Source: a candidate division WOR-3 bacterium (GTDB lineage Bacteria > Hydrothermota > Tepidihabitantia > Tepidihabitantales > Tepidihabitantaceae). From it: a stretch of 43,187 nucleotides of DNA. The translations under genes and the position numbers were made by a program. Shown here piece after piece: positions 15,794 to 34,937 of the stretch (position 1 is the stretch's first letter; the number at the start of each line of letters is the position of its first letter). The DNA lies in the NCBI GenBank assembly GCA_016867815.1, contig VGIR01000016.1:1-43187 (forward strand). The letters are read 5' to 3'. The notes under the pieces were generated by a model. It had not been told where the DNA came from. It saw only the letters and a program-made list of their open reading frames with translations, and made no database searches.

Positions 15794-15819
15794 CACGCCT
15801 CCTGCTCGGGTCCGCATTC

Positions 15820-15955
15820 GTCATTCGGAATCCGGACTTCGTCGTACCGGCCGCCTCCTCACCCTCGCTCCGCTCTCCCTCTCCTCTGAGAGGAGAGGGA
15901 CGGGATGAGGAGTATCCCGTACTTCGTCATTAGGAATTCGGACTTCGTCATCTCT
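15820..15955. repeat. ATGACGAAGTCC words and a 10-bp-stem hairpin
   Basis: The spacer between the regulator gene and the sugar transferase gene is made of repeat words. Minus-strand ATGACGAAGTCCGAATTCC and relatives occur at 15825-15855 and 15925-15953. Between them lies a near-perfect hairpin CCCTCTCCTC (15877-15886)/GAGGAGAGGG (15890-15899). The ATGACGAAGTC word recurs at the starts of the 26290-26544 gene and of hypE (33617-33626). Confidence 0.8.
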
Positions 15956-17251
15956 CTAGTACGACCCCTTCCTCGACAGCACCGCACTCGGGGTCCTGAG
16001 TATGATCTTCAGGTCCTCCCAGAAAGTCCACTCCTGCACGTAGCTCGTGTCCATCTGCACGCGCGAGTCGTAGCTCGTGTCGTTTCTGCCCGATACCTGC
16101 CACCGGCCCGTGGCCCCGGGCGGGACGCGGAACATCACCAGCGAATGCTCTTTGTAGTACTTCACCTCATCGTCCACAATTGGCCGCGGCCCGACGAAAC
16201 TCATCTGGCCCGCCACGATGTTGAAGAACTGCGGCAGTTCGTCGATGCTGAAATCGCGCAGGAACCTGCCCACGCGGGTGACGCGCGGGTCGTTCTTCAG
16301 CTTGAACTTCTCCTCGAACTCCTGCTTAAGCGCAGGGCTGGAGTCAAGCAGGGCCTTCAGCCGCAGGTCTGCGTCCCGGTGCATGGTCCGGAACTTGAGT
16401 ATCCTGAGGTCGCGCATGTTCCGCCCCAGCCGTCGGTGCCGGTAGAAGACCGGGCCCGGGCTGTCCAGCTTGATGACGACACTTGTGACGATATAGACCG
16501 GACTCAGGATGATAATGGTCAGCGCGGACAGCACCAGGTCCACGACGCGCTTCAGCCTTCGGCCCACACCGGAGAGCGAATACGAGGCAATCGGCCGCGG
16601 ATGGGGTCCGGACAGATACGTTGACATCTTGAAAGAAGGAACGCCGATGAAATCGACGAAGTAGTCACTCGACAGGCCGGCCACAATGTACTCGGTCTTC
16701 GGATTCGAACTGTCGACGATGATCGTGTCGTACTTGGCGACTCGTCCCCGGTCGTCCGAGTTCGCCTTGAGCCATGCCGGGAGGTCTTCGAGCGTGATGA
16801 CCTCAACGCATTCGAAGCCCCACCAGCGCAGCAGCCTAGTCTTGGTGAAGTGCAGATCGGTGACGAGCAGCACGGGCTGACGGGTAAGGTAACGCAGGCA
16901 AAGGCCGATCAACGGTGCGAGAGCGTTCAGGTAGACCCAGAGCGCCAGCCAGAACTTGACCGTTACCGCCTCGGCCCAAGGCCATACGCCGTGCAGGAAG
17001 CTGTATCCGGCGTAGGCCAGGCCGAACGCGGCCTGGGTTCTTAGCGTGAGGCCGAAATTGGCGCGGGAGGTCGCTTCGAACTCTCCGGCCACGTAGCTCG
17101 CGCCGATGAGGATGATCCAGACGGCGACGACCGTAGTCACGGATGCCGAGTCCTGTACGAACGTGTTCCTGAGAATGGTGATGGCGAGCAACAGGAACAG
17201 CAGCTCCATCACTACCCGTACAGGACCGTTGTTCCTTGAGCTTATCTTCAT
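15956..17251 (-). CDS. Polyprenyl-phosphate sugar-1-phosphate transferase
   Basis: This is a 431-residue protein of the WbaP/WcaJ/PglC-like family that starts exopolysaccharide, O-antigen or glycan synthesis by moving a sugar-1-phosphate onto undecaprenyl phosphate. Residues ~10-130 contain four membrane helices ([15 protein letters not shown] and following), ~130-225 a Rossmann-like CoA-binding-type domain, and ~230-431 the catalytic bacterial sugar transferase domain. Seen there are [47 protein letters not shown] (catalytic Asp-type), [33 protein letters not shown] and a C-terminal [15 protein letters not shown] promoter ends 16 bases before the ATG and no Shine-Dalgarno sequence is present. 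The sugar is not predictable and there are no other glycan genes in the window. Confidence 0.93.
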
Positions 17252-17267
17252 CTACTGGGTCTCTGGC

Positions 17268-17295
17268 AGTCTATCAGGAGCACCCAGCCAGTCAA
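17268..17295 (-). promoter_or_regulatory. Promoter of the sugar transferase gene
   Basis: On the minus strand TTGACT (17290-17295), a 16-base spacer and TAGACT (17268-17273). The ATG at 17251 is 16 bases downstream, giving a leader of under ten bases. Confidence 0.7.
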
Positions 17296-17355
17296 GCGCG
17301 CCAGCCTCTCAGCCCCGTCAGACCGTCGAGTGGATGCTTCGCACCGCCCTGTTCC

Positions 17356-17384
17356 TTGACCCTGTGGTTACGGTCAGCTACGCT
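17356..17384 (+). promoter_or_regulatory. Probable uvrA promoter
   Basis: TTGACC (17356-17361), a 17-base spacer and TACGCT (17379-17384; matches the consensus at the three most conserved positions). An in-frame ATG follows at 17394, nine bases after the -10 box. Confidence 0.55.
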
Positions 17385-17393
17385 TTCTTTCCC

Positions 17394-20375
17394 ATGCCAG
17401 AAAGCAAAGTGCGAGCGCCGAATGCCGAACGCCAAACGCCGGCCGGGCTTGGGACACGATCCGAATCCGCTGCGGATTCGGTCATGTCCCGCGACGATGT
17501 GATCAGCATCCGCGGGGCGCGGGAGCACAACCTGAAGAACATCAGCCTCGACATCCCGCGCAACAAGCTGGTAGTCATCACCGGCCTGTCCGGCTCGGGC
17601 AAGTCGTCGCTCGCGTTCGACACCATCTACGCCGAGGGCCAGCGCCGGTACATCGAGTCGCTCTCGGCCTATGCCCGGCAGTTCCTCGGCATGCTGGAGA
17701 AGCCGGATTGCGACCAGATTACCGGCCTCTCCCCGGCCATCGCCATCGAGCAACGTACCTCGGCCCGCAACCCGCGTTCCACTGTCGGCACAGTCACGGA
17801 GATCTACGACTACCTGCGCCTGCTCTTTGCCCGTATCGGTAAGCCCTACTGCCCCAAATGCGGTAAGCCGATCTCATCCCAAACCACCGACCAGATCGTA
17901 GACAATCTGCTCGCCCTGACCGAAGGCACGAACCTCATCATCCTCGCCCCGTTGATACGCGCCCGCAAAGGCGAGTACAAGGAGCTGCTGGTCAAGGCCA
18001 AGCGCCGGGGTTACATCCGTGTGCGAGTCGACGGAAAGCTCTTCGAAGTTGATGAGGTGCCGGACCTCGAGCGCTACAAGAAGCACGACATCGAAGTCGT
18101 GGTTGATCGGCTGCAGGTGAAACCGGATGCAAGGAAGCGCCTGGCCGACTCGGTCGAGCTGGCGCTGAAAGAGGGCAATGGGCTGTGTATCGTCGCGACC
18201 CAAAGGGCCGCGACCGAAGTCCAAAGTCCCAAGTCAAAAGTCCCAAGTCCCGAGAGCCGCGCCGAAGGTGGCGACCTTGTGTTCTCGGCAGCCTTGGCCT
18301 GCCCGGAGTGCGGGTACAGCCTGGGCGAGATTTCACCCCGTCTCTTCTCGTTCAACGCGCCGCAGGGCGCCTGCCCGACCTGCCACGGACTCGGCACCAA
18401 GATGGAAATCGACCCGGACCGGGTCATCTCCAACCCTGACCTGTCGGTGATGGACGGTGCGCTCCAGCCCTGGGGCGAGGCACGGGAACGAAGCCAGTGG
18501 TTCACCGCGCCGCTCAAGACTCTGGCACGCCGGCACGGCTTCAAGCTCGACACGCCGTGGAAGAAACTTCCCGCCTTTGCCAGGCGGCTGATTCTCTACG
18601 GCTCCGAGGAGGACCTCAAGGTCAAGTACACGCGCTGGGACGACAGCGAGTTCTACTGGCAGCACAAGTTCGAGGGCCTGATGCCGAACCTGCTCCGTCT
18701 ATACCATGAGACCGAGTCCGAGTCACGACGCGAGTGGATTGAAGGATTCATGACCCTGCTCCCTTGCCCCGATTGCCAGGGCCGGCGGCTGAAGCCAGAA
18801 GCCCTGGCGGTGCGCATCGGCGACGTGAACATCGCCGAACTGAGCGCTTTCTCCATCCGCCGCTGCCACGAGTACTTCATGCGTGAACTGAAGCTCACGG
18901 GCCGGGACGAGGAAGTGTCCCGCGAGGTCATCAAGGAGCTCCGCAAGCGGCTCGGCTTTCTCACCGCGGTCGGAATCGACTACTTGACCCTGGACCGCAC
19001 CGCCGAGACCCTGGGCGGCGGCGAGGCCCAGCGCGTACGCCTCGCCACGCAGATCGGCTCCGGGCTCGTCGGCGTCGTCTACATCCTCGACGAACCTTCC
19101 ATCGGCCTGCACCAGCGGGACAACCGAAAGCTGCTTGGAACACTGACCCGGCTGCGCGACCTCGGCAACACGGTCATCGTGGTCGAGCACGATGAGGAGA
19201 CAATCCTTGAAGCCGACCACGTCATCGACCTCGGCCCGGGCGCGGGCGACACCGGCGGCAGAGTCGTGGCCCAGGGCCCACCCCAAGAGATCAAACGCAA
19301 CCCGGACTCGCTGACCGGCGCCTACCTGTCGGGCCGGAAGAGCATCGCGCTGCCGGCCGAACGGCGCGAACCCCGAATCGGCGCTCTCACTGTCCAAGGC
19401 TGCAAGGAGAACAACCTCAAGAACACGGACATATCGGTGCCGCTCGGCCTGTTCGTGGCCGTGACCGGTGTCTCCGGCTCAGGCAAGAGCACGTTCGTGT
19501 CCGACATCCTGTACCGGGCGCTCGCCCGCCACTTCTACGACTCGCGGGAGAAGCCCGGCGCCCACGACCACATCGCCGGCATCGAGAAGATCGACAAGGT
19601 CATCAACATCGACCAGTCGCCGATCGGCCGCACCCCGCGCTCAAACCCCGCGACCTATACCGGTGCGTTCGGGCCGATCCGCGAGCTGTTCGCCAGAACC
19701 AAGGATGCGCGGATGCGCGGGTACAAGCCGGGGCGGTTCTCTTTCAACGTGAAGGGCGGCCGGTGTGAGGCGTGCGGCGGCGACGGCATCATCAAGGTAG
19801 AGATGCACTTCCTGCCCGACGTCTACGTCACCTGCGAGGTCTGCCGGGGCAGGCGCTACAACCGCGAGACGCTGGAGGTGAAGTACAAGACGAAGAGCAT
19901 CAGCGACGTGCTGGAAATGTCAGTCCTGGAGGCGGACCTGTTCTTCGCGAACGTCCCGGCGGTCGCGCGCAAGGTCCGGCTGCTGGAGGAGGTGGGCCTC
20001 GGCTACGTCAAACTCGGCCAGTCGGCGACAACGCTCTCCGGTGGCGAGGCCCAGCGTATCAAGCTGGCCCGCGAGCTATCGAAGATTGCCACCGGCCGTA
20101 CCCTCTACCTTCTCGATGAACCCACGACCGGGCTCCACTTCGAGGACGTCCGGCTGCTGCTCGGCGTGCTCGACCGGCTGGTTGCCCGCGGCAACACCGT
20201 GCTCGTCATCGAGCACAACCTCGAAGTCATCAAGTGTGCTGACTGGATAATCGACCTTGGGCCCGAGGGCGGGGACGAAGGCGGTACGGTTGTCGTGGCC
20301 GGAACGCCGGAAAAGGTCGCCTCGTGCGAATCCTCGCACACCGGCAAGTACCTGAAACCGCTGCTTAGACGCTAG
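17394..20375 (+). CDS. uvrA: Excinuclease ABC subunit A
   Basis: This is the UvrA damage-recognition ATPase of nucleotide excision repair, 993 residues from 17394 or 963 from ATG 17484. Visible are ABC-I Walker A ([19 protein letters not shown]) and signature/Walker B ([31 protein letters not shown]). ABC-II follows with [30 protein letters not shown] and [16 protein letters not shown]. Zinc cysteines are CPKCGKP, CPECGY...CPTCHG and CEACGGDG...[10 protein letters not shown]. The first 30 residues from 17394 are encoded by repeat words and palindromic element B; the family core starts at [16 protein letters not shown]. Near residues 273-292 the stretch [18 protein letters not shown] is encoded by AAGTCCCAAGTC words, an in-frame insertion before a zinc-binding segment. 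The stop shares CTAG with that of lon. The start choice rests on the promoter at 17356. Confidence 0.97.
17403..17445. repeat. CGAACGCCAAACGCC word repeat
   Basis: gcgccgaatgccgaacgccaaacgcc words sit directly before palindromic element B within the N-terminal extension of uvrA. The reverse complement of the same word occurs inside hypD at 33966-34000. Confidence 0.75.
17451..17490. repeat. Palindromic element, copy B (minimal)
   Basis: GGGACACGATCCGAATCCG and CGGATTCGGTCATGTCCC form a near-perfect inverted repeat with a 2-base centre. These are the outer arms of copies A and D without the inner core. The ATG at 17484, a possible uvrA start, lies inside the right arm. Confidence 0.85.
18215..18253. 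repeat. AAGTCCCAAGTC words inside uvrA
   Basis: Four AAGTC words in near-tandem (gaagtccaaagtcccaag, then tcaaaagtcccaagtcc), in frame with uvrA, encode the Ser/Pro/Lys-rich insertion. A related word (gcaagtccgaagtccaaagt on the minus strand) encodes the N-terminus of HypE. Confidence 0.85.
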
Positions 20376-32513: not shown

Positions 32514-33668
32514 CTAGCAGATTCTCGGCAACTGCTCTGCCTCGAGCATTATCAAGGGCCGCAGCGACCCGATCCGGGTTCTGAGCCAGACGCCTTCCGG
32601 CTTCTTCACGACCTCACCGATCATTGCAGCCTGCCTGCCGAGCCGGTGCCGTCGCATACCGCCCAGAACTCTCGCCTCAGCCTTTGGGTCAGCAACCACG
32701 ACGACCTTACCCTCATTCGCCATGTAGAATGGGCTCAGTCCGAGCAACTCGGCAACGCCAAGCACGTGCTTCGATACCGGCAGGGCCGCTTCGTCGACTA
32801 CGAACCCGCGCCCGGTCGCCTCCGCGAACTCGTTAAGGGTCGTGGCCAGCCCGCCTCTTGTCGGGTCCCGCATCAGCCTCACGCCCGGCTTTGCGAGCAG
32901 CGGCAGAACCAGGCCGTCGAGCGCGGCGCAGTCACTCTCCGCCTTGCCCTTGAAACGATATGCCCCGCGCGCAACCGCAATCGCGGCTTCGTGCTCGCCG
33001 ATCGGCCCGTTGATGAGAATCACATCACCCGGCTTCACCTGCTCCGGCCCAAGTTGCGCGCCGGGCAGCCGCGTACCGATTCCCGTTGTGTTGATGTACA
33101 ACTCGTCGGCCTCTCCCCGCTCAATCACCTTGGTGTCGCCGGTCACGACCTGGATGCCCGCCTTCCGACACTCCGCCGCAATCGAACGGCAGATGGCTTC
33201 GAGCTTCGTGACCTCGAGACCCTCGCGGAGCACGAACGCCAGCGAGATGAAGCGGGGCTTCGCCCCCATCACCGCCAGGTCGTTGACCGTGCCGCAGACC
33301 GCGAGCTTGCCGATGTCGCCGCCCGGGAAGAAGATCGGCTGCACGACGTATGAATCCGTCGTCATCACCAGCTCACCGAAAACGGGGACTGTACCGCGCG
33401 TCCTCGTGCTCCGGGGGACTGTCCCCGTTTTCACTTGCAGTCCAGGCAGGACCGCGGCATCGGCGAGATTCCGCAGCGCCGGACTGCCGAAGTGCTTCAC
33501 GAACACATTCTTTATCAGTCGGTGCATCTTCTTGCCACCGGCGCCGTGCCCCATCACGATACGCGAGTCAACGATGTCGCCCACTATCACCGGCGGATTC
33601 CACTCCGGCTCGGCCAACTTCGTCATTTCCACTTTGGACTTCGGACTTGCGTTACTACGCCCGCTCAT
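32514..33668 (-). CDS. hypE: Hydrogenase maturation protein HypE
   Basis: This is a 384-residue PurM-like enzyme that dehydrates the carbamoyl group delivered by HypF to form the cyanide ligand of the NiFe site. Family parts are IVMGHGAGGKKMHRLI, LVMTTDSYVVQPIFFPGGDIGKLAVCGTVNDLAVMGA, VVTGDTKVIERGEAD, LINGPIGEHEAAI, RDPTRGGLATTLNEFA and the C-terminal PRIC whose Cys carries the thiocarboxamide. Two repeat-derived parts are unusual. The N-terminus (SNASPKSKVEMTK) comes from AAGTCC/ATGACGAAG words. Residues ~79-97 (KTGTVPRSTRTRGTVPVFGE) are encoded by palindromic element C, inserted in frame just before LVMTTDSY. ATG 33668 overlaps the duplicated hypD end; ATG 33626 is the alternative start. 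Confidence 0.95.
   Translation of the reverse strand: MSGRSNASPKSKVEMTKLAEPEWNPPVIVGDIVDSRIVMGHGAGGKKMHRLIKNVFVKHFGSPALRNLADAAVLPGLQVKTGTVPRSTRTRGTVPVFGELVMTTDSYVVQPIFFPGGDIGKLAVCGTVNDLAVMGAKPRFISLAFVLREGLEVTKLEAICRSIAAECRKAGIQVVTGDTKVIERGEADELYINTTGIGTRLPGAQLGPEQVKPGDVILINGPIGEHEAAIAVARGAYRFKGKAESDCAALDGLVLPLLAKPGVRLMRDPTRGGLATTLNEFAEATGRGFVVDEAALPVSKHVLGVAELLGLSPFYMANEGKVVVVADPKAEARVLGGMRRHRLGRQAAMIGEVVKKPEGVWLRTRIGSLRPLIMLEAEQLPRIC
33378..33432. repeat. Palindromic element, copy C (inside hypE)
   Basis: GAAAACGGGGAC (33378-33389) and GTCCCCGTTTTC (33421-33432) form the arms. The 41-base core in the reverse orientation matches copy A (8714-8754) with three differences. It preserves the hypE frame. 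Confidence 0.9.
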
Positions 33669-33690
33669 ACTTGTAGTACGCCGCACACGC
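33664..33690 (-). repeat. Detached second copy of the hypD 3' end
   Basis: These 27 bases are a direct repeat of 33822-33848, the hypD 3' end. On the minus strand they read A-C-A-A-Y-Y-K-Y-E, followed by R-A-stop (TAG at 33655-33657). The three differences from the copy at hypD are all synonymous third positions. The hypE ATG (33666-33668) lies inside it, so ancestral hypD probably overlapped hypE here. Confidence 0.85.
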
Positions 33691-33693
33691 GAA

Positions 33694-33787
33694 GGGACAT
33701 GACCGAAATCGCGGGGACTGTAACGGATTGCGCCGCGTTCCTGCGCGGCGGGGACTGTCCCCATCCGGCGATTTCGGATCGTGTCCC
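33694..33787. repeat. Palindromic element, copy D (hypD/hypE spacer)
   Basis: Arms GGGACATGACCGAAATCGC (33694-33712) and GCGATTTCGGATCGTGTCCC (33768-33787) are inverted repeats with one indel. The interior contains GGGGACTGT...GGGGACTGTCCCC and a CGCCGCG/CGCGGCG hairpin. It separates hypD from hypE between the two 27-bp copies. Confidence 0.9.
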
Positions 33788-33815
33788 AAGCGCGCCGCGA
33801 ACTCCACACCGAAAG

Positions 33816-34937
33816 CTATCTCTCATATTTGTAGTACGCAGCACAAGCCCCCTCGGTCGACACCATGCACGGCCCGACCGGCGACTCCGGCGAGCACGTC
33901 TTGGCAAAAAGCTTGCACTCCGGCGGCACGATGACTCCGAGCATCACGTCGCCGCACCGGCAGCGCGTCTGGCGTTTGGCGTTTGGCGTTCGGAGTTCGG
34001 CGATTCTGAACCGCTTCCGGGCATCGAACTCGCGGAATCCCTGCCGGAACCCGAGACCACTGCCGCGTATCGTGCCGAGCCCGCGCCACTCCGCGTCACC
34101 GGGCTCGAAAACCGTTTCCATTACCTGTATCGCCGTCCGGTTACCTTCCGGCTTCACGCTCCGGGTGTACTGAATCTCCACTCTCGGACCGGACTTCACC
34201 TGCTCGAGCAGCATGTGAATCCCCTGCAGCACGTCCAGCGCCTCGAACCCGACCACACAACTCGGCAGGTGGTACTTGTCGCGTAGGAACTCGTAGGGCC
34301 GAGTCCCGATGATGGTCGAGACGTGACCGGGCAGGATGAACCCGTCCACGTTCACGCGGTCAGAAGATGCAATGGCTTCTAGCGCGCGCGGAATGGTCTT
34401 GAACATAGACAGTACGTAGAAGTTCGAGACCTTCGATTCCTGTGCCGCGATTACGGTCGCGGCCACGGTCGGAGCGGTCGTTTCAAAACCCACCCCGAGA
34501 AAGACGAACTGCCGGTCCGGCTCGGCCTCGGCTAGACGCATGGCATCGAGCGGCGAATACACAACGCGGACGTCGGCTCCTATCGCCTTCTCGTGCTCCA
34601 GCGAGGTCCGTGTGCCCGGCACCCGCATCATATCTCCGAATGTGACAACTGCCACGCCCTGCTCGCCGGCGATGCCGATTGCCGCGTCAATCTCCGCCTG
34701 CGCGGTCACGCAGACCGGACACCCCGGTCCGGATAGCAGCCGCAGGCGCGGGTCCACCGCCCGCCGGATGCCGAATCCGGAGATCGCCATCGTGTGCGTG
34801 CCGCAGACCTCCATCAGGTTGATTGTCCTGCGGGTCTCGCAGAGCTCGATGACAAGGTTGTTCACCCGGCTGAGCAATGCCCGCTCCAGCGCGCCCTCGT
34901 CCAGCTTCCGCGTGGCCTTGTGCTGCTCAGCTTTCAC
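33816..34937 (-). CDS. hypD: Hydrogenase maturation protein HypD
   Basis: This is a 373-residue iron-sulfur scaffold protein that, with HypC and HypE, builds the Fe(CN)2CO group. Seen are LMEVCGTHTMAISGFG (active Cys), LLSGPGCPVCVTAQAEID, FLGVGFETTAPTVAA, GFILPGHVSTIIG, and the C-terminal cluster region CRCGDVMLG...IVPPECKLFAKTC...GPCMVSTEGACAAYYKYER. At residues ~309-324 the peptide RIAELRTPNAKRQTR is encoded by ggcgtttggcgtttggcgttcgg words (33966-34000), an in-frame insertion just before the CRCG cluster ligand. The ATG is six bases from a -10 box (leaderless). hypC, hypF and a hydrogenase are not in the window. Confidence 0.95.
   Translation of the reverse strand: MKAEQHKATRKLDEGALERALLSRVNNLVIELCETRRTINLMEVCGTHTMAISGFGIRRAVDPRLRLLSGPGCPVCVTAQAEIDAAIGIAGEQGVAVVTFGDMMRVPGTRTSLEHEKAIGADVRVVYSPLDAMRLAEAEPDRQFVFLGVGFETTAPTVAATVIAAQESKVSNFYVLSMFKTIPRALEAIASSDRVNVDGFILPGHVSTIIGTRPYEFLRDKYHLPSCVVGFEALDVLQGIHMLLEQVKSGPRVEIQYTRSVKPEGNRTAIQVMETVFEPGDAEWRGLGTIRGSGLGFRQGFREFDARKRFRIAELRTPNAKRQTRCRCGDVMLGVIVPPECKLFAKTCSPESPVGPCMVSTEGACAAYYKYER
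33966..34008. repeat. CGTTTGGCGTTTGGCGTTCGG words inside hypD
   Basis: A near-tandem 7-base word tract in the hypD frame; the reverse complement of the word at 17410-17440 in the uvrA N-terminal extension. Confidence 0.85.

Follow-up and report, generated by a model that had tools for sequence, protein, structure and literature searches.

In a candidate division WOR-3 bacterium, the segment shared by overlapping hypD and hypE genes has probably been duplicated around a palindromic hairpin element and then split between the two genes, the inner copy serving the C-terminus of hypD and the outer copy the start of hypE. The window analyzed here, namely the whole stretch of 43,187 nucleotides, carries on its minus strand hypD, a spacer of approximately 28 nt, the palindromic element (element D), a second copy of the hypD end, and hypE, in this order (Table 1).

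Table 1. Features of the hypD-hypE junction in the window (positions on the forward strand)
Feature	Position	Strand	Basis or remark
hypD, 373 aa	33816..34937	-	stop 33816-33818; TIGR00075 6.6e-131 (NCBIfam); PF01924 2.7e-142 (Pfam); PDB relative 2z1d
Inner copy of the common segment, the working C-terminal codons of hypD (A-C-A-A-Y-Y-K-Y-E)	33822..33848	-	direct repeat, 24/27 versus outer copy
Spacer, hypD stop to element	33788..33815	-	no relation to the gene end detectable in either orientation
Palindromic element D (GGGACACGATCC...GGTCATGTCCC on the minus strand)	33694..33787	-	pattern match; fold -52.1 kcal/mol, z -4.25; family in all six genomes of the genus
Nested GGGGACAGTCCCC-type module within the element	33712..33762	-	
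Outer copy of the common segment, putative ancestral hypD end, now with the hypE start	33664..33690	-	direct repeat; near-identical outer copy in G003
Stop codon of the relic hypD frame of the outer copy (...Y-K-Y-E-R-A-stop)	33655..33657	-	
hypE from the outer-copy ATG (33666-33668)	32514..33668	-	frame and relatives; TIGR02124 1.9e-119
Bridging frame, 53 aa (hypothetical)	33665..33826	-	inner-copy ATG, across the element, to the TGA overlapping the hypE ATG
Second palindromic module, in frame within hypE, without flanking duplication	33378..33432	-	inverted repeat; site empty in G002, G004 and G005

The two copies of the 27-bp segment form an ungapped direct repeat with a score of 19.5, while the best score in 300 dinucleotide shuffles of the region was 13.0; the repeat is real and beyond chance. 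Equally high scores elsewhere in the window do not come from gene ends: at 36.0-36.8 kb the source is a tandem repeat in coding sequence, and at 15.8-15.9 kb it is the filler word TTCGTCATTCGGAATCCGGACTTCGTC, which forms an intergenic direct repeat of 25/27 (15817-15843 versus 15923-15949). The copies of the junction segment differ at three third codon positions (GCT/GCG, GCT/GCG, and AAA/AAG), all of which are synonymous in the frame A-C-A-A-Y-Y-K-Y-E. Both copies are followed by an Arg codon (AGA/CGG), and then by TAG in the inner copy and by GCG TAG in the outer copy. The initial annotation was correct in that the outer copy continues into R-A-stop and overlaps the hypE ATG, which lies within the Tyr-Glu codons of this copy and is in frame with hypE (MSGRSNASPKSKVEMTKLAEP...). 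From the frame and the relatives, we deduce that hypE probably starts at this ATG; a second in-frame ATG lies further downstream at 33624-33626. The PDB relative aligns with hypD up to the last K-Y.

We compared the junction of the window genome (G000) with those of five other genomes of the same genus (G001-G005) and of order-level relatives; the closest named relatives of the window are candidate division WOR-3 metagenome-assembled genomes. In G004 and G005, hypE can be read directly from the ATG inside the TATGA codons of hypD, and the element is absent. This element-free overlap at TATGA was found in most of the relatives and is the usual state across the order. G002 has a single hypD end with hypE directly after it, and no hypD match was found in G001, the genome of which is incomplete. 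As the relatives without the element overlap at TATGA, we regard the overlap as ancestral and the spacer as derived. The proposal that hypD once ended inside hypE, and the expectation of overlapping genes without the element in related genomes, are thus both borne out.

The element and the outer copy recur at the same place in G003, which has its own hypD end on the inner side, so that the doubled junction around the element, as initially proposed for the window, is also present in a second species of the genus. An assembly artefact is unlikely because this separate genome shows the same structure. Between G000 and G003, the block comprising the element and the outer copy is 95% identical over 139 bp; at four-fold sites the two genomes are identical at 52% in hypD and 63% in hypE. 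Such high conservation of the block is consistent with constraint on the hypE start and the hairpin, or with a later exchange between species. In the tree of hypD and hypE, G000, G002, and G003 grouped together with 98-99% support, whereas the union of G000 and G002 received only 83% and 51%. G002 thus belongs to the same clade and yet is without the insertion, which counts against our explanation: if G000 and G002 are sisters, either a lateral exchange or a loss, perhaps in G002 itself, must be assumed.

The outer copies of G000 and G003 are near-identical and both resemble the ordinary hypD end of the genus (...YKYERA-stop). Most of the changes are found in the inner copies, and what sets these two apart is largely synonymous. 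The inner copy of G003 encodes ACAAYFKYDRN and reads TACGAT, with the hypE ATG lost, whereas its outer copy retains TATGAG; from the outer ATG onward, hypE reads without interruption in G000 and in G003. Because the changes fall mostly in the inner copy, the synonymous-only divergence in G000 fits purifying selection on hypD acting through that copy alone, and the initial suggestion that both copies were for a time under protein-level selection is not needed. All of the five hypD genes found in the genus (in the window and at L051-L054) also share, at the same site, a run of approximately 7-bp repeats (33965-34002 in the window), the words of which differ by genome (AACGCCA, AATCGTC, GTACACC, and others), as if repeatedly rewritten.

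From these comparisons, we infer the order of events, the origin of the duplication, and the role of selection as follows. Ancestrally, the hypE ATG would have lain inside the Tyr-Glu codons of the conserved ACAAYYKYE end of hypD. In the lineage of G000 and G003, a hairpin repeat would have arrived at the junction, and the common segment of approximately 27-36 bp would have been duplicated with it; only the two-copy version would have left both the hypD C-terminus and the hypE start whole. The inner copy would then have drifted synonymously under the constraint on hypD, while the outer copy would have retained the ancestral hypE start. We consider this account as a whole, with the overlap duplicated around a hairpin and the copies dividing the work, to be likely. 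The spacer on the inner-copy side of the element is left unexplained by it and counts against it. In 15 sequence tests (p 0.045 to 0.9) and in the folds, the spacer gave no consistent signal of a diverged continuation of the duplication or of a gene end copied in inverted, fold-back orientation, and no known RNA family came near the gathering score there.

Element D belongs to a family of GCTT-GGGACACGATCC-stem-loop-GGTCATGTCCC-GCGC hairpins, of which the six genomes of the genus contain 8-54 strict copies each; a reversed control pattern gave none. The stems vary widely among the copies with the arms remaining complementary, and of 73 distinct copies, 63 have no stop in any of the three forward frames. 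The GGGGACAGTCCCC module nested in element D is itself widespread. Y1 transposase matches number 4-7 per genome of the genus, and several of the Y1 genes are flanked by inverted ATTTCGGGGACACAATACTTAA ends, which share GGGGACAC with the element. No complete copy of the 40-bp hairpin was found beside the eight Y1 genes inspected, and the tetranucleotides GTAG and CGTC, by which one class of REPs is tagged, are absent from the hairpin ends, which read GCTT...GCGC in the copies displayed. The hairpin is probably mobilized by an IS200-type Y1 transposase.

Palindromes were also found within genes. The hypD of G002 (L051, G002:C25, 2123-3421) contains two in-frame palindromic elements near query codons 94 and 247, and its frame of 435 aa remains open despite both. 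The hypE genes of G000 and G003 (L052) carry in-frame palindromes at the same codon with different inserted sequences. A further copy of the 40-bp hairpin, at 17451-17490 of the window, is probably in frame with the long open frame around it (17106-20375).

TIRYT are RAYT-like, IS200-type transposases, the TIR repeats of which carry a GGGGWSAS motif (PMC3733652). These TIR repeats are the closest described relatives of the hairpin family. Both are short, multi-copy palindromes with GGGGACA-type motifs beside or inside genes, and in both cases the genomes code for Y1 transposases, several of which are bordered here by inverted ends that include GGGGACAC. In contrast to the TIR repeats, the family studied here is built on one specific 40-bp hairpin in which the stems covary freely and a second module is nested, and its mobilization by Y1 is putative; nothing like the doubled gene overlap appears in the part of the TIRYT account consulted. 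The same source reports palindromes in frame inside protein-coding genes for Rickettsia palindromic elements and other intragenic REPs (PMC3733652). The comparison with the Rickettsia elements covers in-gene behavior, in which the present family resembles them; element D differs from them in sitting between two genes, where it split an overlap.

The initial annotation attributed the duplication to the insertion itself, and expected long direct duplications at other copies of the element. Two copies do flank element D, and one further locus of this kind was found, but the claim gains no support as a general rule. Among 85 copies of the hairpin family, long flanking direct repeats occur at two loci only, each in two species, namely the hypD-hypE junction and a dispersed C-terminal-domain cassette (G000:C28 and G003:C8). 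Fixed-length direct repeats, as expected from the target-site duplication of a MITE or transposon, do not abut most copies, and insertions within genes showed no duplication against relatives with an empty site in three of three comparisons. On the flank survey and these comparisons, we reject the element as a general transposon with long duplications; the duplication is an exception and not the usual integration signature of the family. The overlap gives a reason for a duplication at this junction, as neither gene can do without the segment, which supplies the conserved C-terminus of hypD and the start of hypE. The cassette is laid out like the junction, with a gene end and stop, a spacer of at most approximately 40 nt, an element oriented as in the junction, and, after another 3-5 nt, a second gene end. 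Element-free copies of the cassette show one gene end only, with a terminator-like hairpin behind it. The cassette is, however, multi-copy and its duplication could be a fusion of two paralogues, and we downgraded it as clean support for a duplication made by insertion. The cassette, with its C-terminal domain ending in ...RFSRKVVLAE-stop, is represented by L233:230-560, L232:1780-2108, L286, L287, and L288.

The clean insertions elsewhere in the family favor a different sequence of events, in which replication slippage first made a short tandem duplication of the junction and the element was later inserted between the copies, making none itself. A further partial copy of the junction in G003 points in the same direction, since it marks the junction as prone to duplication. 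None of the compared genomes has the tandem duplication without the element, and this scenario departs from a duplication accompanying the arrival of the hairpin only in the order of events; we rate it as a serious contender, somewhat short of an even chance. Another origin, from two hypD genes, is improbable in our judgment. Here a tandem or incoming hypD would have recombined with the resident gene, for instance via the palindromic elements, which are common and could supply the homology, and the last codons of the old gene would have been left past the element. The inner and outer copies indeed differ at several synonymous sites, as would homologues of two lineages, and both inner copies (G000 and G003) have GCT where both outer copies have GCG. 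Yet change in the inner copy subsequent to the split accounts for most of the differences, and the scenario calls for an additional gene as well as for an element located precisely ahead of the final codons. A search of G000 yielded one hypD and no second gene elsewhere as a donor; the recombination from a related hypD raised initially therefore gains no support, albeit a foreign hypD could still have contributed.

The layout of a gene end, a hairpin, and a downstream near-copy also resembles that of a diversity-generating retroelement, with the hypD end as the variable repeat and the outer copy as the template repeat. The likeness ends there, as each of the three differences (G to T, G to T, and G to A) replaces a G of the supposed template and none affects an adenine, the repeat spans no more than 27 bp, and a conserved housekeeping C-terminus would be the target; we give this reading next to no credence.

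Duplication of the overlap around the hairpin remains the preferred reading, and splits of the same junction occurred more than once. In G003, a third partial copy of the junction surrounds an extra 49-bp insertion flanked by GAGAGGGCGTAGGACGC and GAGAGCGCGTAGGAACGC. In G018, a member of another family, a different element with a PDDEXK_3-family gene splits hypD and hypE, with AATATGAA retained on both sides; the gene lies between CCACGGAT...ATCCGTGG ends (L034, G018:C208, reverse strand, approximately 2240-2660). This split is independent of that in G000 and G003. The three cases suggest that insertions into the overlap survive only when the overlap is duplicated.

Short frames bridge the element in both species. 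That of G000 (53 aa) runs from the ATG remaining in the hypD end, while that of G003 (48 aa) starts from a TGATG on the hypD stop and ends with ...ACAAYYKYERA-stop over the hypE ATG. Random spacers yield such frames in 38% (G000) and 23% (G003) of cases; chance explains them fairly easily, and we treat them as hypothetical instead of as evidence of function. ATGA and TGATG overlaps have been associated with termination-reinitiation (PMC6728339). As in the translationally coupled pairs considered in the consulted part of that work, hypD and hypE overlap in the relatives, and ATGA (G000) and TGATG (G003) bound the bridging frames; unlike in those pairs, a hairpin separates the two genes, and any coupling would have to cross the short frame. 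It is a rather doubtful possibility that the element is a tolerated translational bridge, with the short frame, begun over the hypD stop and ended on the hypE start, relaying the hypD-hypE coupling and with insertions into overlaps being repeatedly rescued by duplication, as G003 and G018 would indicate.

Our literature search, which was partial in coverage, found no precedent for an insertion at which a gene overlap was duplicated. Overlapping genes are usually seen as locked together, since anything inserted in the overlap would disrupt one of the two. Several genomes display the states before and after, namely the overlap, its duplication around a hairpin, and the segment divided between the genes, and the case shows how an overlapping pair can survive an insertion. 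It makes testable the loss of overlaps, coupling via a short bridging frame, and the spread of palindromes through conserved operons without gene killing.
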